A DNA stretch of 12,256 bases from Opitutaceae bacterium (GTDB taxonomy: Bacteria; Verrucomicrobiota; Verrucomicrobiia; Opitutales; Opitutaceae). Position numbers and translations under genes: made by a program. Position 1 is the first letter of the stretch, and each line of letters starts with the position of its first letter. The stretch is from assembly GCA_031272375.1 (NCBI GenBank), contig JAISTY010000196.1, positions 1 through 12,256 of the forward strand, read 5' to 3'. The notes beneath the pieces were generated by a model. The model was given only the letters and a program-made list of their open reading frames with translations, made no database searches and was not told where the DNA came from. Of the stretch, positions 3,119 through 11,733 are shown in pieces.

Positions 3119-3158
3119 GCGGCGGCTTGTCTAGCATCACAAGCCGCCGCCTTTTTTT
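3119..3158 (+). terminator. Intrinsic terminator of eno
   Basis: A perfect 12-bp stem, GCGGCGGCTTGT (3119-3130) against ACAAGCCGCCGC (3139-3150), has an 8-nt loop and is followed by C and seven T (3152-3158). It lies 79 nt after the eno stop. This is a textbook Rho-independent terminator and separates eno from the TRAP operon. Confidence 0.93.
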
Positions 3159-3467
3159 GCCCGCCGACAACCCGCCGCGCGCCCCCAACGGCCGGCTTTT
3201 GACGCGAAAAATGGCGCAAGCCCTGCCGCGGGACGGGCTTGGGAACAGTAGCGCGCGAAAGAAATTGTTATGATAAAGTTTTTGGATGGCTGCATTGAGT
3301 TAAACAAAACTAATACATGCTGTTTTTGTTGTCGTGTTCATTATGTTTATTTTCAACATGTTCCATAACTAATGGGCGGGAGGCGCAAAAAAAATATTTG
3401 CACACCCCAATTAGCAGTTCAACTATCAGCGGCGTTCTCTTGGGAACCAAAAATAGGAATAACTAAT
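3159..3467 (+). promoter_or_regulatory. AT-rich leader/promoter region of the TRAP-eutB operon
   Basis: About 310 nt without a gene. The composition drops sharply; 3301-3360 has only 16 G/C in 60 bases, against a GC-rich background. A hairpin CAAGCCC (3217-3223) / GGGCTTG (3235-3241) opens the region. A near-perfect inverted repeat, AACAAAAC (3303-3310) / GTTTTTGTT (3322-3330), and a palindrome AACATGTT (3355-3362) are possible operator sites. A weak sigma-70-like pair is TTGCAC (3398-3403), 17 nt, AACTAT (3421-3426). AGGA at about 3456, upstream of the dctP ATG, is the only reasonable ribosome binding site I see in the operon. No cobalamin-riboswitch B12 box was recognised. Confidence 0.5.
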
Positions 3468-4547
3468 ATGAGCACACAAACACCAAAGGTTGAAAAAGCA
3501 GAGGCTCGCATGAACAAGCGCGAGTTTCTCAAGAAGGCCGGGCTGGGGCTGGCCTTCGCCGCCGGCGCGCCTTACATCATCGCCGCCAAAAAGCCCGCCA
3601 TCAAGTGGCGCCTCCAGACCTATGCCGGCTCCGCCCTCGGCGAACACGTCATCAAACCCGCGGTGGACGCCTTCAACAAGGCCGCGGACGGCGAGATGTT
3701 CATCGAGCTTTACTACGCCGACCAGCTCGTGCCCACCAGCGAGCTGTTCCTCGCCTGCCAGCGCGGCACCATTGACGCCGTCCAGAGCGACGACGACTCC
3801 ATGGCCTCGCCCGCCGACGTGAAGATTTTCGGCGGCTACTTCCCGTTCGCGGCGCGCTACTCGCTCGATGTGCCGGCGTTGTTTTACAAGTTCGGCCTCG
3901 ATAAGATCTGGAAGGAGTCCTACGACGCCGTCGGCGGCGTCACCTGGCTCAGCGCGGGCGCGTGGGATCCGTGCCACTTCGTCACCAAAAAGCCCATCAA
4001 CTCGCTCGCTGATCTCAAGGGGTTGCGGGTCTACACGTTCCCGACCGCCGGGCAGTTCCTGCAGCAATTCGGCGTCGTGCCCGTCACCCTGCCCTACGAG
4101 GACGCGGCCCCCGCGGTCACCACCGGGCAGCTCGACGGCATGGCGTGGTGCGGCATCACCGAGGACTACACCGTCGGCTGGGCGGATGTTAACAAATACT
4201 TCCTGACCAACAACATCTCCGGCGCGTGGATCGGGCACTTCTTCGCCAACACGAAGTCCTGGGCGAAAGTGCCGGACAAGTTGAAGGAACTCTGGAAGTT
4301 GTGCATGGACAGCTCGCACTACTACCGCCAGCACTGGTATTGGGCGGGCGAGGCCGACCTCCGCGTCAACGGCCCCAAGCTCAAACTCACCGCGATCCCC
4401 GACGACGAATGGAAGAGCGTCGAGGAAGCCGCCGTCAAATTCTGGTCGGAACTTGGCAAGACCTCCGAGCGCGCCGGCAAGGTCGTCAAGATATTCCAGG
4501 ACTACAACGCTCTCATGGCGAAGGCCGGAAGGCCGTATCGCTACTGA
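3468..4547 (+). CDS. dctP: TRAP transporter periplasmic substrate-binding protein (DctP family), candidate ethanolamine/amine binder
   Basis: Captures the substrate in the periplasm for the TRAP membrane subunits encoded just downstream. It is 359 aa from the ATG at 3468. An internal ATG at 3510 (MNKREFLKKAGLG) would also give a complete signal; I prefer 3468 because AGGA lies before it, with moderate certainty. The signal resembles a Tat signal with KR in place of RR (NKREFLK), followed by a hydrophobic stretch ending about residue 40. Family features include LADLKGLRVYTFPTAG (180-195), TLPYEDAAPAVTTGQLDGM (207-225) and the aromatic-rich C-terminus. Most DctP proteins carry a conserved Arg after LKGLK-x that binds the substrate carboxylate; here the aligned residue is Tyr189. 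This argues against an organic acid ligand, and eutB in the same operon points to ethanolamine. The symbol is a family name, not a claim of dicarboxylate transport. Confidence 0.95.
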   Translation: MSTQTPKVEKAEARMNKREFLKKAGLGLAFAAGAPYIIAAKKPAIKWRLQTYAGSALGEHVIKPAVDAFNKAADGEMFIELYYADQLVPTSELFLACQRGTIDAVQSDDDSMASPADVKIFGGYFPFAARYSLDVPALFYKFGLDKIWKESYDAVGGVTWLSAGAWDPCHFVTKKPINSLADLKGLRVYTFPTAGQFLQQFGVVPVTLPYEDAAPAVTTGQLDGMAWCGITEDYTVGWADVNKYFLTNNISGAWIGHFFANTKSWAKVPDKLKELWKLCMDSSHYYRQHWYWAGEADLRVNGPKLKLTAIPDDEWKSVEEAAVKFWSELGKTSERAGKVVKIFQDYNALMAKAGRPYRY

Positions 4548-4570
4548 CAAACAAACGGGTGTATAAATAA

Positions 4571-4601
4571 TCGCGGGGGGATTTTGGGTGTCCCCCCGCG
4601 A
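4571..4601 (+). promoter_or_regulatory. Intercistronic GC hairpin between dctP and dctQ
   Basis: CGCGGGGGG (4572-4580) pairs perfectly with CCCCCCGCG (4592-4600) across an 11-nt loop, and T4571/A4601 extend the stem to 10 bp. It begins 24 nt after the dctP stop and ends 17 nt before the dctQ ATG. AATTTATATA follows instead of a clean T-run, so partial termination or protection of the dctP mRNA 3' end is more likely than full termination. Such hairpins commonly raise binding-protein expression over permease subunits; that role is inferred here. Confidence 0.75.
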
Positions 4602-4618
4602 ATTTATATAAAAGTCTC

Positions 4619-5278
4619 ATGACATCGTTTTTCAAAAACACCGCCCGTTTTTATGTTCATTATGTCACCGCGCTGAACCACGCGGTCGGCATTTTCGCGG
4701 CGTATCTGCTGCTGATGCTGCTGGCCATATTGATGTATTCCGTCATCAGCGCGGGCGTGTTCAACAAGCCCGGCGTCTGGGTGATGGAGATGGCGCAGTT
4801 CACAATGGCCGCCTATTACCTGCTCGGCGGCGGCTTGTCCATCCGCGAGGGCGCGCATGTGCGCATGGATTTCCTTTATGAGAAATGGGGCGCGCGCCGC
4901 AAACTCGTCACCGATTGCCTGACCATCGGCTTCGTCGTGTTTTATCTGATTGTGATGGTGAAGGGCGGGATTTCCAGCTCGTCGTTCGCGCTTGAATACA
5001 AGCAGCGCAACCACACCGCCTGGGCGCCCTACATGGCGCCGATCAAAATCATCATGACAACGGGGATGTTCCTGATGCTGCTGCAGGTCGTCGCCGAATT
5101 TCTCCGCGACCTCGCGAAACTCGGCGGCTGGAACATTGAATACGGAAAATCCGAAACCGCCGCCGGAGAGGAGGTTCCGCTCATCTCCACGCGCGCCACG
5201 CGCTCGTTCAGCCCGGTGATGCTGTTCAACAACATCACCGGCGCGCTGTGCGTGAAACTTTACGACCGGACACGCTGA
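4619..5278 (+). CDS. dctQ: TRAP transporter small permease subunit (DctQ family)
   Basis: Small integral membrane subunit that pairs with DctM to form the Na+-coupled TRAP permease. It has 219 residues and four predicted membrane segments, at about 22-46, 54-74, 99-117 and 138-161. The short family signature REGAHVRMDFLYEKW (76-90) follows the second segment, as usual. The protein is longer than the common 160-190 aa because of a charged then hydrophobic C-terminal tail after residue 165, which has no motif I recognise. The ATG at 4619 follows a hairpin and an AT-rich leader without a Shine-Dalgarno. Position between dctP and dctM supports the assignment. Confidence 0.94.
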   Translation: MTSFFKNTARFYVHYVTALNHAVGIFAAYLLLMLLAILMYSVISAGVFNKPGVWVMEMAQFTMAAYYLLGGGLSIREGAHVRMDFLYEKWGARRKLVTDCLTIGFVVFYLIVMVKGGISSSSFALEYKQRNHTAWAPYMAPIKIIMTTGMFLMLLQVVAEFLRDLAKLGGWNIEYGKSETAAGEEVPLISTRATRSFSPVMLFNNITGALCVKLYDRTR

Positions 5279-5335
5279 AAACAGCCCGGACACTTCATAT
5301 AAACAACAAAACCACCCGAAAAAAACACCGCCGAA

Positions 5336-6655
5336 ATGTCACCCGAACTGATTATATTATTGATGTTCTCAACCCTGATGCTGCTGATGATAACGGGGCA
5401 GCGCGTCTTCGGCGTCATGGGCTTCGTTGGCGTCATCTGCGCGATTTGTCTGTGGGGCGACGGCGGCTGGGAAATGGGGTTCAGCGCGGCGATAAAATTG
5501 TTCAACTGGTATCCGATGCTGACGCTGCCGATGTTCATATTCATGGGCTACATGCTGTCGGAGTCCGGCATCGCCAACGATTTGTATCACATGCTGCATG
5601 TCTGGATGGGCGGGTTGCGCGGCGGGCTTGCGATAGGAACCCTGTTTTTGATGGTGATGATTTCGTGCATGAACGGGTTGAGCGTCGCGGGCATGGCGAT
5701 CGGCTGCAGCGTCGCGCTGCCGGAATTGTTGAAACGCGATTACGACAAGCGGATGATCAGCGGCATCATACAGGCCGGCAGCTCGCTCGGCATCCTGGTC
5801 CCCCCGAGCATCGTGCTTGTCCTATACGGCATGATCGCGCGCCAGCCGATCGCGACGCTCTGGCTCGCCGGCATCGTCCCGGGATTGATGATAGCCGCGT
5901 TCTTTTTGATATATATAGTCGTCCGCTGCAAACTGCAACCCTCGCTCGGTCCGGCGCTTCCGGCGTCCGAGCGCAACTTCACATGGGGCGAGAAACTGCG
6001 CGTGCTCGGCGCGGGAATTCTGCCGGTTTTGCTGATGCTGGTTGTCATCGGCTCGTTTTTCCTCGGCTACGCGAGTTTGGTTGAAAGCTCCGCGATCGGC
6101 GCGCTCGCCTCGATGCTCATCGCGCTTTTCCGGCGCCGCCTGACGCGGAAGGTTCTTCACAACACCCTGAAGCAATCGCTCAACGCCAGCGCGATGTTCA
6201 TGTGGATCATGATGGCCGCGCTCGCGTTCGCCGCGGTTTTCGACGGCCTCGGCGCCGTCCGCGCGATTGAAAAGGTGTTTCTCGACCAATGGGGGCTTTC
6301 GCCGTGGATGGTGCTGCTGTTGATGCAGGTCTCCTTTGTCATTCTCGGCATCTTCCTCGACGACACCGCGATGCTCGTGATTGTCGCCCCGTTATATATA
6401 CCGATGATTATAAAGCTCGGCTTCAGCCCGGTCTGGTTCGGCATCCTTTACACAATCACGTGCCAGATCGCCTACCTGACGCCGCCGTTCGGCTACAATC
6501 TGTTCCTGATGCGGGCGATGTCGCCGCCGGAATTCACAATAAAGGACATCTATGTCTCCATCATCCCCTTTGTCGCGATCATGTTTTTGTCGCTTATATT
6601 AATCATGTTTTTCCCGCAAATCGCGCTCTGGCTGCCCAGCCTCGCCGCAAAATAA
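5336..6655 (+). CDS. dctM: TRAP transporter large permease subunit (DctM family)
   Basis: The main transport subunit of the TRAP system, a multi-pass inner-membrane secondary transporter of the IT superfamily. The 439 residues are normal for the family and mostly hydrophobic. Family blocks are present: a first half with QAGSSLGILVPPSIV (146-160), the linking ASLVESSAIGA motif (246-256), and a second half with GIFLDDTAMLVIVAPLYIP (338-356) and the mirrored YLTPPFGYNLFLMRAM (380-395). The two helical-hairpin repeats with VPP and TPP are those that hold Na+ and substrate in characterised TRAP proteins. The start is 57 nt after dctQ, with no ribosome binding site. The gene uses about a dozen ATA isoleucine codons, whereas eno uses one. 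Confidence 0.96.
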   Translation: MSPELIILLMFSTLMLLMITGQRVFGVMGFVGVICAICLWGDGGWEMGFSAAIKLFNWYPMLTLPMFIFMGYMLSESGIANDLYHMLHVWMGGLRGGLAIGTLFLMVMISCMNGLSVAGMAIGCSVALPELLKRDYDKRMISGIIQAGSSLGILVPPSIVLVLYGMIARQPIATLWLAGIVPGLMIAAFFLIYIVVRCKLQPSLGPALPASERNFTWGEKLRVLGAGILPVLLMLVVIGSFFLGYASLVESSAIGALASMLIALFRRRLTRKVLHNTLKQSLNASAMFMWIMMAALAFAAVFDGLGAVRAIEKVFLDQWGLSPWMVLLLMQVSFVILGIFLDDTAMLVIVAPLYIPMIIKLGFSPVWFGILYTITCQIAYLTPPFGYNLFLMRAMSPPEFTIKDIYVSIIPFVAIMFLSLILIMFFPQIALWLPSLAAK

Positions 6656-6660
6656 TATAA

Positions 6661-8052
6661 ATGTCCTTTCAAAAAACATGGTCGTTTTCCGTCGGCAAAA
6701 ACCGGCATCATTTCGGGTCGCTGCGCGAATTGATGGCAAAGGCGTCGCCATGGAAGTCGGGCGACGCGCTCGCGGGGCTTGCCGCTTCCTCCGCGGAGGA
6801 ACGCGCCGCCGCCCAAAGCTGCCTCGCGGACGTGCCGTTGGCGCAATTCCTTGAAGACCTGCTTGTTCCATACGAGCAGGATGCCGTCACGCGCCTCATC
6901 ATTGACACGCATGACGCGGCGGCGTTCGCGCCTGTCGGCGGCTTGTCGGTCGGGCAATTCCGCGACTGGCTGCTGCGTTATGAGACTGACACGGAGGTTC
7001 TTACCGCGCTGGCGCCGGGGCTGACGCCCGAAATGGTCGCCGCCACCTCGAAACTGATGTCCAACCAGGATCTCATTTTAGTCGCATCGAAGTGCCGGAT
7101 TGTCACCGCGTTCCGCGACACGATTGGGTTGCCCGGCAGGTTGTCGGTGCGCCTGCAGCCCAACCATCCCGCCGACGACGCCCGCGGCATCGCCGCATCC
7201 ATCGTTGACGGACTGCTTTATGGCTGCGGCGACGCGGTCATCGGCATCAACCCCGCGACGGACAGCGTGCCCTCGATGGAAACGCTGCTGCGGATGCTCG
7301 ACGATCTCATTCGCCGTTATGAAATTCCAACGCAATCCTGCGTCCTCGCGCATGTGACGACCGCGCTGGAAGTGATGCGCCGCGGCGCGCCCGTTGACCT
7401 TGTTTTCCAATCCATTGCCGGAACGGAGGCTGCCAACAAGGCCTTCGGAATTAACCTGTCCCTATTGGCCGAGGCGCGCGATGCCGCGCTTTCGTTAAAA
7501 CGTTGGAATGTCGGCGATAACGTCATGTATTTTGAGACGGGGCAAGGCAGCGCGCTTTCGGCCGACGCCCACCACGGCGTTGATTTGCAAACCTGCGAGG
7601 CCCGCGCCTACGCGGTGGCGAGGCCGTTCAAACCGTTGTTGGTGAACACAGTTGTCGGCTTCATCGGCCCCGAATACCTGTCCGACGGCAAACAAATCAT
7701 CCGCGCCGGTTTGGAGGATCATCTCTGCGGGAAACTGCTTGGTCTGCCAATGGGTTGCGACATCTGCTACACCAACCATGCCGACGCCGATCAGGACGAC
7801 ATGGACAACCTGCTGACGCTGCTTGGGGTTGCCGGCTGCAATTACATCATGGGCATTCCGGGGGCGGACGACATCGCACTGGGCTATCAAAGCAACTCCT
7901 TCCACGACAGCCATTACTTGCGTCAGGTGCTAAACCTGCGCCCCGCGCCGGAGTTTGAGGCCTGGCTTGAAAAAACGGGGCTGACCCGCGCGAACAAGCT
8001 GCCGCCGCCGGAGACCAGCGCCGCGCTGCCATTCAACGCCTTCCTTGCATGA
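6661..8052 (+). CDS. eutB: Ethanolamine ammonia-lyase large (catalytic) subunit
   Basis: Adenosylcobalamin-dependent deamination of ethanolamine to acetaldehyde and ammonia, normally as an EutB-EutC complex. The 463 aa compare with about 453 in E. coli. By spacing and motif, the residues known to contact substrate in E. coli EutB (Arg160, Gln162, Asn193, Glu287, Asp362, from memory) correspond to Arg164 and Gln166 (RLQPNHP), Asn197 (GINPATDS), Glu292 (YFETGQGS) and Asp367 (GCDICYTNHADADQDD). All are intact, so the subunit looks functional. It starts 5 nt after the dctM stop, so it is almost certainly in the TRAP operon. EutC does not follow: the next gene is on the opposite strand 37 nt later. 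The window also has no reactivase EutA, shell proteins, or acetaldehyde and alcohol dehydrogenases. Confidence 0.98.
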   Translation: MSFQKTWSFSVGKNRHHFGSLRELMAKASPWKSGDALAGLAASSAEERAAAQSCLADVPLAQFLEDLLVPYEQDAVTRLIIDTHDAAAFAPVGGLSVGQFRDWLLRYETDTEVLTALAPGLTPEMVAATSKLMSNQDLILVASKCRIVTAFRDTIGLPGRLSVRLQPNHPADDARGIAASIVDGLLYGCGDAVIGINPATDSVPSMETLLRMLDDLIRRYEIPTQSCVLAHVTTALEVMRRGAPVDLVFQSIAGTEAANKAFGINLSLLAEARDAALSLKRWNVGDNVMYFETGQGSALSADAHHGVDLQTCEARAYAVARPFKPLLVNTVVGFIGPEYLSDGKQIIRAGLEDHLCGKLLGLPMGCDICYTNHADADQDDMDNLLTLLGVAGCNYIMGIPGADDIALGYQSNSFHDSHYLRQVLNLRPAPEFEAWLEKTGLTRANKLPPPETSAALPFNAFLA

Positions 8053-8089: not shown

Positions 8090-8500
8090 TCATCTCCAAG
8101 GCATTGGGAAACAGGTGGTATTGTAGAGGGAATAGTCGGCGGTGCCGTTGACGGCGAAGGTGCGCAGGAGCGCGGCTTCGCGAAGAATGCGGCGGGCGGC
8201 TTCGAGGGTGGCGCCGGTTTTGGAGCGGTCGTCGGCGATGAGCAAGGCTTTGCCGGCGAAGGAGAAGGAGGGCGCGCGGAGAAGGGTCGGGGTTTCGCGG
8301 CAGGGGGTGTTGTCGGGGCCGCGCCAGTTGAGATGAAGGATTTCGAGGGGAATTTGGAAGCGTTCGGCGAGGAGGGCGCCGGGGACGCAGCCGCCGTTGG
8401 CAATGGCAACAACGGCGTCGAAGCGTTCCGTAAAACGAAGGGCGCGAAGGCGTTCGATGAAGTCGGCGAACGTCGGGCGGGCTGCGGGGGCGTCAGGCAT
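8090..8500 (-). CDS. Small type I phosphoribosyltransferase
   Basis: Likely moves phosphoribosyl from PRPP to a base or similar acceptor; the acceptor is unknown. The 136 residues contain the PRPP-binding loop ALLIADDRSKTGAT (85-98), with the DD...TG pattern of type I enzymes, and an earlier AIANGGCVPGALLAE (33-47) resembling the pyrophosphate loop of Gpt-like enzymes. The hood region LNWRGPDNTPCRET (58-70) does not name a substrate to me. The ATG at 8500 overlaps the last bases of the upstream ECF-type gene (ATGCCTGA, 8 nt shared), which suggests translational coupling. A substrate imported by that protein may be the acceptor. The gene ends convergently with eutB, 37 nt apart. Alternative: a broad COG2236-like predicted phosphoribosyltransferase. 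Confidence 0.75.
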   Translation of the reverse strand: MPDAPAARPTFADFIERLRALRFTERFDAVVAIANGGCVPGALLAERFQIPLEILHLNWRGPDNTPCRETPTLLRAPSFSFAGKALLIADDRSKTGATLEAARRILREAALLRTFAVNGTADYSLYNTTCFPMPWR

Positions 8501-9044
8501 TGCGGCGGATGCGGGCGAAGAGGCGCGCCACCGCGAAGCCGCCAGCGATTTGCAGGAGGATGCCGGGCCAGCCAAGGGCAAGGTCGCGGAGGGCAGCGCC
8601 GTGGCCGGCAAGCGCGGTTTGAACGAGACCGCCAAGGAGTTGCGCGGCGATGACGGCGATGGCGAGGCCGGCGAGAAGCGCGAAACCGGTGGTTTTGACG
8701 CGGCGGGAAACGAGACCGGCGACGATGGCGAGCGCGGCGGATTTGAGGGTGATGGCGAGAAGGACGTCGGCGGCGGGCATGCCGGCGAGGGCGTGGTTGA
8801 GCGCCGGGGACAGCAGGGCGGCGGCGAGACCGGCGCGCCAGCCGAGGCACCATGCGCCCATGAGCGTGAAGAAATAGATGGGCAGCCAGGTTTGCCCGCC
8901 GAGGGCGAAGGCATGGCAGGCCGCGGGCGCGAGGAGATTGCCGGCGACAAGCGCGGCGGCGCAGACGGTGAAGGCGAGGCGGCGCGGGCTGATGTCGAGG
9001 GGGCGCCAGAGGGTTTGGGAGACGGTCGGGTTGGCGGTATTCAT
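8493..9044 (-). CDS. ECF transporter substrate-binding (S) component-like membrane protein
   Basis: A 183-residue membrane protein with about five to six hydrophobic segments (about 23-43, 53-72, 73-90, 93-112, 118-142 and 158-176). The core GGQTWLPIYFFTLMGAWCLG (49-68), followed by LLSPALNHALAGMP (77-90), matches the pattern of ECF vitamin-uptake S components (G-x-x-WLP, a G-x-x-x-G helix, then SP...l-x-GMP). No ECF ATPases or T component are nearby, so it would rely on a shared energising module elsewhere. I chose the ATG at 9044 because an upstream in-frame ATG at 9089 adds a polar stretch before the natural MNTANP start; neither has a ribosome binding site. It overlaps the phosphoribosyltransferase gene, suggesting import and then phosphoribosylation of a base-like or vitamin precursor. 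The ligand is unknown and the family call is by pattern. Confidence 0.62.
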   Translation of the reverse strand: MNTANPTVSQTLWRPLDISPRRLAFTVCAAALVAGNLLAPAACHAFALGGQTWLPIYFFTLMGAWCLGWRAGLAAALLSPALNHALAGMPAADVLLAITLKSAALAIVAGLVSRRVKTTGFALLAGLAIAVIAAQLLGGLVQTALAGHGAALRDLALGWPGILLQIAGGFAVARLFARIRRNA

Positions 9045-9615: not shown

Positions 9616-11733
9616 ATGCGTCTCCTCTTTCTCCTCCCGCTCCTCACCGCCCCGCTCCTCGCCAACTTCCGCACCGCCCGCGTCTTCACCGACCACATGG
9701 TTCTCCAACGCGGCATGGAAAACCCCGTCTGGGGACAAGGCGCCGCCCCCAACGCCACCGTCACCGCCTCCCTCCGCGACGCCTCCGCCGCCCTCGCCAC
9801 CGCCTCCACCCGCGCCGATTCCCAGGGCCGCTGGCGCCTCCGCCTCCCCATCCCCAACGCCCCCGTCGCCTCGCCACTCACCCTGACCATCGCCTCGGAC
9901 AACGCCTCCCTCACCCTCGCCGATGTCCTTGTCGGCGACGTCTGGCTCTGCGCCGGCCAGTCCAACCTCACCCACGCCGTCGCCCACAACGCCGACACCG
10001 ACACCTCCCGCCCCTATTCCCATAAGAGCAAGACCACCTGGCGTCTCCCCGACCCCAACCCGGCCCTCGACTCCGGCATCCGCCACTTCGGCCTCGAGAG
10101 AAAAATCCCCGCCAACTTCAACGACCCCCTCGACGACTTCATCCCCGACCTCGACAACGACCCCGCCGTCGAAAACACTTGGAAACGCGCCACCCCTGAA
10201 ACCGCCGGCGAGTTCACCGCCATCGGCTTCTATTTCGCCCGCGCCTGGCGCGCCGCCAAACTCCGCTCCGGTCAGAACATCCCCGTCGGCCTCCTCCGCG
10301 TCGGCTGGGGCGGCACACGCATCGAAAGCTGGCTCGACGCCCGGACCCTCGCCTCCCGCCCCGACTTTGCCGCGCGCCGCGCCGAACTCGCCGGCTCCGG
10401 CCCCACCCCGGAAAAACTCCGCTCCAACCGCCCCTCCGCCTGCTTCAACTCCCGCGTCCACCCCCTCGCCGGCCTCGCCCTCCGCGGCGTCCTCTGGAGC
10501 CAAGGCGAGTCCAACTCCGGCACCCACGCCCTCTACCGCGCCGAACTCCCCGCTCTTATCTCAAGCTACCGCAAACTTTTCCAAAACCCCGATCTCCCCT
10601 TCCTCATTCTCCAAACCCCCTCCATTCCGCGCTCCAGCCGCCTCGGCGAAAACCAACCCTACCCCTGGCTCCGCGAAGCCCAGGCCGAAACCGCCCGCTC
10701 CACCCCGCGCGTCTTCCTCGTCTCCACCCTCCCACTCGGCTCCACACAACCCTCCCCCAACAACACCGACGCCGAAATCCACTGCCGCACAAAACACCTC
10801 ATCGCCCCCTTCGCCGCCCTCGCCGCGCGCGCCGGAATTGACGGCGAAAACATCCCCGCCCAAGGCCCCCGCTTCCTCTCCGCCACTTTTTCAGCCAACG
10901 CCGTCACCGCGACCTTCGACACCTCCGGCGCCGGCCTCGCCACCTCCGACAACCTGCCCCCTCGCGGCTTTGAAATCGCCGACGCCTCCGGCCGCTGGCT
11001 CAAACCCGCCTCCGTCACCCTCGGCGAAAACACCGTCACCCTCTCCGCCCCCGGCCTCCCAGACCCCGCCGGCCTCCGCTACGGCTGGTCCAACCAAGGC
11101 CACGCCCTCTCCGAAAAATCCGCCCCCGACGCCGACGAATACCCGCCCACCGCCAACCTCTCCTCACGCCTCCCCGCCGACACCGGCGACCGCCTCCCCA
11201 TGCAACCCTTCCGTTTTGAAACCAAAACCATCGGCGCCACCTTCGACGCCCCCGCCCTCGACGACCGCTTTGACCGCTCCCCCTGGGACGCCGCCCTTCA
11301 CTCCCGCACCCTCGGCCTCCGCCGCGCCACCGACGGCACCGTCGAACGCACCCGCGCCATCGCCACCGAACACCTCAGCTACCGCTCCGCCCGCCCCATC
11401 ACCGGCTTCACCCTTCACGCCATCCTCGCCCACAAAAACCCCGTCGCCACCCCCGACCCAAGCCGCCTCTACGTCTCCGTCTCCAACGACGGCGAAAACT
11501 GGACGCTCCCCGTTCCCCTCGTCCTCTCCACCAACGCGACCGCCAAAACCACCGTCCACGCGACAACCTGCCGCCCGCCCGCCGGTCTCCTTGCAAACGC
11601 CCCCACCTGGCTCCGCGTCACACTCAACGGCTCCGCAATCACAACGGAAACCCAAACGCGCCTCGCCCGCGTCGAACTCCGCACCGGCACCCCGGTCGAG
11701 GCCTTCCCCTGGCCCACGCAAAACAAGCCCTGA
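9616..11733 (+). CDS. Exported sialate O-acetylesterase-type SGNH hydrolase with extra C-terminal region
   Basis: Probably removes O-acetyl groups from sialic acids or other acetylated sugars outside the cytoplasm. It has 705 residues. Residues 1-16 are a signal peptide (MRLLFLLPLLTAPLLA); 19-45 hold the family opening FTDHMVLQRGMENPVWGQG. The SGNH blocks follow: LCAGQSN (nucleophile Ser116), GWGGTRIESW (230-239), LWSQGESN (293-300) and a late EIHCRTK with His389 as probable catalytic His. The usual DIHP element is altered: Glu precedes Ile-His and Cys replaces Pro. A beta-rich family domain runs to about 515, then another 190 residues with a discoidin-like look (SVSNDGENWTLP). The frame is open upstream to an ATG at 9475, but that adds 47 residues encoded by the intergenic repeat, so I use 9616. 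Substrate is unproven. Confidence 0.84.
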   Translation: MRLLFLLPLLTAPLLANFRTARVFTDHMVLQRGMENPVWGQGAAPNATVTASLRDASAALATASTRADSQGRWRLRLPIPNAPVASPLTLTIASDNASLTLADVLVGDVWLCAGQSNLTHAVAHNADTDTSRPYSHKSKTTWRLPDPNPALDSGIRHFGLERKIPANFNDPLDDFIPDLDNDPAVENTWKRATPETAGEFTAIGFYFARAWRAAKLRSGQNIPVGLLRVGWGGTRIESWLDARTLASRPDFAARRAELAGSGPTPEKLRSNRPSACFNSRVHPLAGLALRGVLWSQGESNSGTHALYRAELPALISSYRKLFQNPDLPFLILQTPSIPRSSRLGENQPYPWLREAQAETARSTPRVFLVSTLPLGSTQPSPNNTDAEIHCRTKHLIAPFAALAARAGIDGENIPAQGPRFLSATFSANAVTATFDTSGAGLATSDNLPPRGFEIADASGRWLKPASVTLGENTVTLSAPGLPDPAGLRYGWSNQGHALSEKSAPDADEYPPTANLSSRLPADTGDRLPMQPFRFETKTIGATFDAPALDDRFDRSPWDAALHSRTLGLRRATDGTVERTRAIATEHLSYRSARPITGFTLHAILAHKNPVATPDPSRLYVSVSNDGENWTLPVPLVLSTNATAKTTVHATTCRPPAGLLANAPTWLRVTLNGSAITTETQTRLARVELRTGTPVEAFPWPTQNKP

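Follow-up and report, generated by a model that had tools for sequence, protein, structure and literature searches.

Ethanolamine is a breakdown product of membrane lipids. The Phaeobacter tripartite ATP-independent periplasmic (TRAP) transporter EtoXVW (MED193_10031-10041) adjoins gamma-glutamylation genes (passage in PMC10132767). The short eut operon of Pseudomonas aeruginosa comprises acetaldehyde dehydrogenase, Eat, eutB and eutC (passage in PMC5821096; short eut operons are also mentioned in a passage of PMC3306737), and Salmonella and E. coli carry the long, microcompartment eut operon. Here we analyse a 12,256-nucleotide stretch of DNA from an Opitutaceae bacterium (the window), which is the entire contig C28 of the source genome (1.46 Mb, 242 contigs, 67.6% complete); as about a third of that genome is missing, the genome-wide negatives given below are not firm absences. 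The dctP, dctQ, dctM and eutB genes of the window very probably (about 0.86) constitute one operon for ethanolamine uptake and cleavage:

3468..4547, + strand: dctP (etoX-type), predicted periplasmic ethanolamine-binding TRAP protein (Pfam DctP, 68.5 bits; twin-arginine-like (KR) signal)
4571..4601, + strand: very stable terminator-like hairpin between dctP and dctQ (fold of the 71-nt gap)
4619..5278, + strand: dctQ (etoV-type), small TRAP membrane subunit (Pfam DctQ, 76.6 bits)
5336..6655, + strand: dctM (etoW-type), large TRAP membrane subunit (Pfam DctM, 230.4 bits)
6661..8052, + strand: eutB, ethanolamine ammonia-lyase large subunit (Pfam EutB, 718.7 bits)

All four Pfam matches exceed the cut-off. 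The genes lie in one direction, and eutB starts exactly 5 nt after dctM (dctM ends at 6655, eutB begins at 6661), both as described in an earlier interpretation made from the letters alone (the sequence-only reading); the other gaps are 71 nt (dctP-dctQ) and 57 nt (dctQ-dctM). The dctP frame is open from an ATG at 3372, with further ATGs at 3468 and 3510 and the stop at 4547; translation may start at 3510 instead of 3468, because relatives such as P0003 (Geminisphaera colitermitum) begin there (MNKREF). Gene order, protein families, pocket and active-site residues and conservation of linkage were read from the sequence, and from these we infer the ligand, the direction and energy of transport, co-transcription and the pairing of EutB with EutC.

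The transporter resembles EtoXVW and Csal_0678 in its DctP family, in the aromatic residue at the Arg147 position and in the retained Glu220, and its DctQ and DctM are related to those of loci carrying a glutamine-synthetase-family gene. Unlike EtoXVW, its partner is the cobalamin lyase EutB and not gamma-glutamylation genes, and the order is P-Q-M against the commoner Q-M-P; no glutamine-synthetase match was present among the scanned frames of the window, where eutB stands instead, so the window holds an EtoXVW-type transporter and not the published EtoXVW operon. As in the short operon of P. aeruginosa, a transporter is combined with a lyase in the absence of a microcompartment. Eat, however, is a one-protein carrier, whereas the window has a TRAP system of three parts, one of them a binding protein, and no aldehyde dehydrogenase in the operon. 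EutB belongs to the same family as that of the long operon, unlike which the window operon lacks a shell protein, EutA or EutH-like gene (EutH looked at in the operon only). No description of an EtoX-type TRAP joined to eutB was found in the literature passages, a scope outside which lies Vetting et al. 2015 (TRAP ligands), which may mention the pairing. The locus is thus a known importer and a known lyase in an alternative coupling, an arrangement with few descriptions so far that is found again in several groups of bacteria.

The structure nearest to the window DctP is that of Csal_0678, crystallised with ethanolamine (PDB 4UAB; 68% identity across 315 residues; E-value 1.5e-150, PDB sequence set). 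Tyr189 of the window DctP aligns with the arginine of 4pet and 4yzz, which we take to be SiaP Arg147, and with the phenylalanine of 4uab; arginine occurs at this carboxylate-binding position in none of the 90 aligned DctP sequences. Glu232 corresponds to Glu220, the acid that holds ethanolamine in 4UAB, and is glutamate in 90/90 aligned sequences; this correspondence follows from the pairing of residue 359 of our structure model with 4UAB residue 347 (a first modelling run with 18 sequences was poor, with a predicted local distance difference test score of 55.9, and a second with 64 sequences was usable, at 83.3). Csal_0678 likewise lacks the carboxylate-binding arginine of SiaP, Arg147 (passage in PMC4646407). 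The E-value against 4UAB also passes the metagenome cut-off of the EtoX authors (1e-60; passage in PMC10132767), though it was computed on a different database size. This homology makes import of ethanolamine for EutB by the TRAP system, as first proposed from the gene neighbourhood, a well supported prediction.

The linkage was searched for with a DctP threshold of E <= 1e-60 in 252 Opitutaceae genomes and 335 genomes of the class, and of E <= 1e-40 in 288 genomes of the phylum. Among the 252 Opitutaceae genomes, DctP was found in 8, EutB in 37 and EutC in 38, and in all 8 DctP-bearing genomes eutB adjoins the dct genes on the same strand: six have the order dctP-Q-M-eutB-eutC, G457 has eutB-eutC-dctP-Q-M, and the window lacks eutC, which stands directly behind eutB in the other seven. 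The probability of all 8 falling by chance within the 37 EutB genomes is about 1e-7, kinship being ignored. The other 29 eutB-bearing genomes had no such DctP; seven of their eutB loci, compared with the window genes only, contained eutB and eutC without a DctP, DctQ or DctM match. An EAT-type permease (TIGR00908) was considered as the uptake route in most of these 29 genomes and rejected, with only 1/252 genomes matching at E 1e-60. In the phylum set, DctP occurred in three genomes (window, G047, G267), of which G047 and G267 carry a glutamine-synthetase-family gene instead of eutB; in the class set it occurred in four: the window, G679 (dctPQM-eutBC), G539 (glutamine-synthetase-family gene) and G554 (contig ending inside dctM). 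The 80 top-ranking named loci, out of at least 578, comprised 6 with dctPQM-eutBC, 54 with a glutamine-synthetase-family gene, 1 with an aldehyde dehydrogenase only and 19 with neither partner in the stretch examined, which was short in some; none of these 80 had both eutB and a glutamine-synthetase-family gene in that stretch. Adjacency of dctM and eutB is therefore not unique to the source genome, being seen in other Opitutaceae, the class and the named loci. Compared with a Thalassospira query (PF00120), 24 of the 54 glutamine-synthetase-family proteins showed 63-100% identity and 30 showed 26-33%; all 54 presumably glutamylate ethanolamine.

Of the 434 columns that align the window EutB with E. 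coli EutB, 222 are identical. At 14 of the 17 positions looked up in 3abo (E. coli) the residue is the same, and EutB keeps the active-site residues Arg160, Gln162, Asn193, Ser247, Phe258, Glu287, Asp362 and Met392 (3abo numbering). EutC is the other lyase subunit and is required for activity. The source genome encodes it as a full intact frame (PF05985, 284.8 bits) beside a miaB-like frame on contig C199; matches of EutC to the window (best E 1.8) and of EutB to C199 (best E 1.6) were noise only, so the split of eutB and eutC is seen from both contigs. The two genes are also on different contigs in four genomes of the same family (G472, G477, G480, G385), which may be an assembly effect, as it may here; in G045 they lie 5 kb apart on one contig, and in G474 and G482 eutC stands in front of eutB. 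The sequence-only reading had passed over both the eutC on another contig and the published ethanolamine TRAP. A cobalamin riboswitch match in the source genome (C189:603-723, - strand; 24.8 bits) fell below the cut-off of 31.5.

In the proposed function, DctP, as a member of the EtoX family, would catch ethanolamine in the periplasm, with Glu232 holding the amine and hydroxyl and the aromatic Tyr189 replacing the usual carboxylate-binding arginine. DctQM would bring ethanolamine inward, driven by an ion gradient, and EutB, with adenosylcobalamin and EutC from the distant locus, would convert it to acetaldehyde and ammonia. Ethanolamine would serve mainly as a nitrogen source, given that no aldehyde sink was found, and acetaldehyde leaving the cell would fit.

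Several observations weigh against the operon as a device for ethanolamine uptake and cleavage. The eutC gene is not in the operon (C199:2367-3257, L131), and the EutC tree places it with G421/G312 (support 82), away from the closest relatives of the window eutB, so the two genes may differ in history; EutB itself differs from E. coli at three of the 17 looked-up positions (257, 401, 403). In the incomplete source genome the aldehyde dehydrogenase search found only a ProA-like frame, and there was no match to Fe-ADH, to EutA or to the microcompartment shell protein PF00936 (0 matches). At the level of expression, the search for a sigma-70-like promoter upstream of dctP gave no match, the hairpin behind dctP might reduce dctQM-eutB expression, and the estimated dctM-eutB gap is 72-136 nt in L012, L123, L125 and L128, so tight dctM-eutB coupling is not general. 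The ligand range of DctP may also be wider than ethanolamine, given a second PDB entry of Csal_0678, probably with another amino alcohol, described below.

The hairpin may be a brake keeping the binding protein above the permease. The dctP-dctQ gap folds at -32.5 kcal/mol (z-score -6.3). Among 12 relatives, with z-scores from cruder shuffles than that of the window, the hairpin is uneven: -6.2 in L034, -4.2 in L127, -3.3 in L128, -2.7 in L012 and -2.1 in L123, and weaker than -2.1 or absent in the other seven.

That the transporter and lyase serve a broader set of small amino alcohols (e.g. 2-aminopropanol), with ethanolamine one substrate among others or a secondary one, is unlikely. Ethanolamine ammonia-lyase accepts 2-aminopropanol, and Csal_0678 has, besides 4UAB, the entry 4XF5 with the same sequence, which is reported to hold 2-amino-1-propanol. 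Both testable pocket positions nevertheless match the ethanolamine-binding family. EtoX, moreover, bound ethanolamine and not the tested phospholipid head groups or glycerol phosphates, in a passage of PMC10132767 that does not mention other amino alcohols. TRAP substrates are mostly carboxylates (passage in PMC4646407), and an organic-acid transporter with eutB as a chance neighbour would follow that rule; we consider it highly improbable and rejected it on the pocket residues and the nearest structure, since the carboxylate-position arginine is absent throughout the alignment and 4UAB is ethanolamine-bound, and the constant eutB linkage in the DctP-bearing Opitutaceae also opposes it.

The position of eutC on C199, instead of directly after eutB as in the seven other TRAP-bearing Opitutaceae, could also mean that the cassette is decaying, eutC having left the operon, by relocation or loss, and eutB having ceased to form a working lyase in the source genome; the guanine-plus-cytosine (GC) content at third codon positions, 0.75 in eutB against 0.92 in eno and fabH, points the same way. 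Decay is nonetheless improbable: both genes have intact frames that score strongly against their families, EutB keeps the eight active-site residues, and eutB and eutC stand apart in other genomes of the family too, as in G045.

The 34-row tree of DctP and DctM unites the eutB-linked transporters in a single clade (support 99/97; 84 in the DctM tree), within which two rows from Zoogloeaceae and the L034/L064 pair (L064 from Lentisphaerae) are nested among Opitutaceae, a position that points to transfer between phyla. The Zoogloeaceae records L013 and L015 hold the complete dctPQM-eutBC set, which was probably acquired by such a transfer. The nearest row to the window is unsure (L034/L064 in the DctP and DctM tree, 84/63; Zoogloeaceae in the DctM tree, 82). 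In the EutB tree the window, four TRAP-linked rows from Opitutaceae, the Zoogloeaceae, L034 and L064 group together (86). The TRAP-linked rows need three changes on the EutB tree and four on the EutC tree; the pairing may accordingly have been gained repeatedly, possibly by recurrent recruitment, or lost repeatedly. The GC content is 0.57 in dctQM, 0.61 in eutB and 0.745 in eutC, against 0.64-0.73 in twelve other stretches of the genome; this contrast was set aside as a sign of acquisition, being a hint not relied on, since the dct genes of relatives are also low in GC.

The operon is flanked in the window by the following features:

Minus strand, ahead of eno: fabH (frames and Pfam)
+ strand, 5' of the dctP operon: eno (frames and Pfam)
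3119..3150, + strand: intrinsic-terminator-like hairpin and T-run behind eno (12 pairs, 9 G-C, tail CTTTTTTT)
After the SASA-domain gene: LemA (frames and Pfam)

The terminator-like hairpin at 3119..3150 would separate eno from the dctP operon. Convergent with eutB (8090-9041, - strand), a phosphoribosyltransferase gene and the end of an energy-coupling factor (ECF)-like membrane protein gene overlap; the PF12822 match of the latter is below the cut-off. A large SASA-domain protein (sialic acid-specific acetylesterase type) is encoded at 9616-11733 (+ strand) and has no relation to the ethanolamine finding. An Rfam scan of the window gave a single, sub-threshold match.

Tentatively, and at somewhat less than even odds, the eutB-linked EtoXVW transporters constitute a separate, self-sufficient module for turning ethanolamine into ammonia that moves by horizontal transfer. 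It would combine high-affinity uptake with a cobalamin lyase in an operon devoid of microcompartment, reactivase and aldehyde-handling genes, would have passed among Verrucomicrobiota, Kiritimatiellota/Lentisphaerota and Zoogloeaceae, perhaps for the most part gut bacteria (habitats guessed from record names), and would correspond to the gamma-glutamylation module that Pseudomonadota carry. If ethanolamine import holds, DctPQM here would be a cation-carrying TRAP system whose pocket (Tyr189, Glu232) can be tested, and the names of many such DctPs, now called mannitol/chloroaromatic or C4-dicarboxylate transporters, would need correction. The data suggest that the same family of ethanolamine importers is coupled to either of two unrelated chemistries, that of a glutamine-synthetase-family enzyme or that of a cobalamin lyase; if so, eutB-linked etoX would be a marker for lyase-based use of lipid-derived ethanolamine in genomes and metagenomes.
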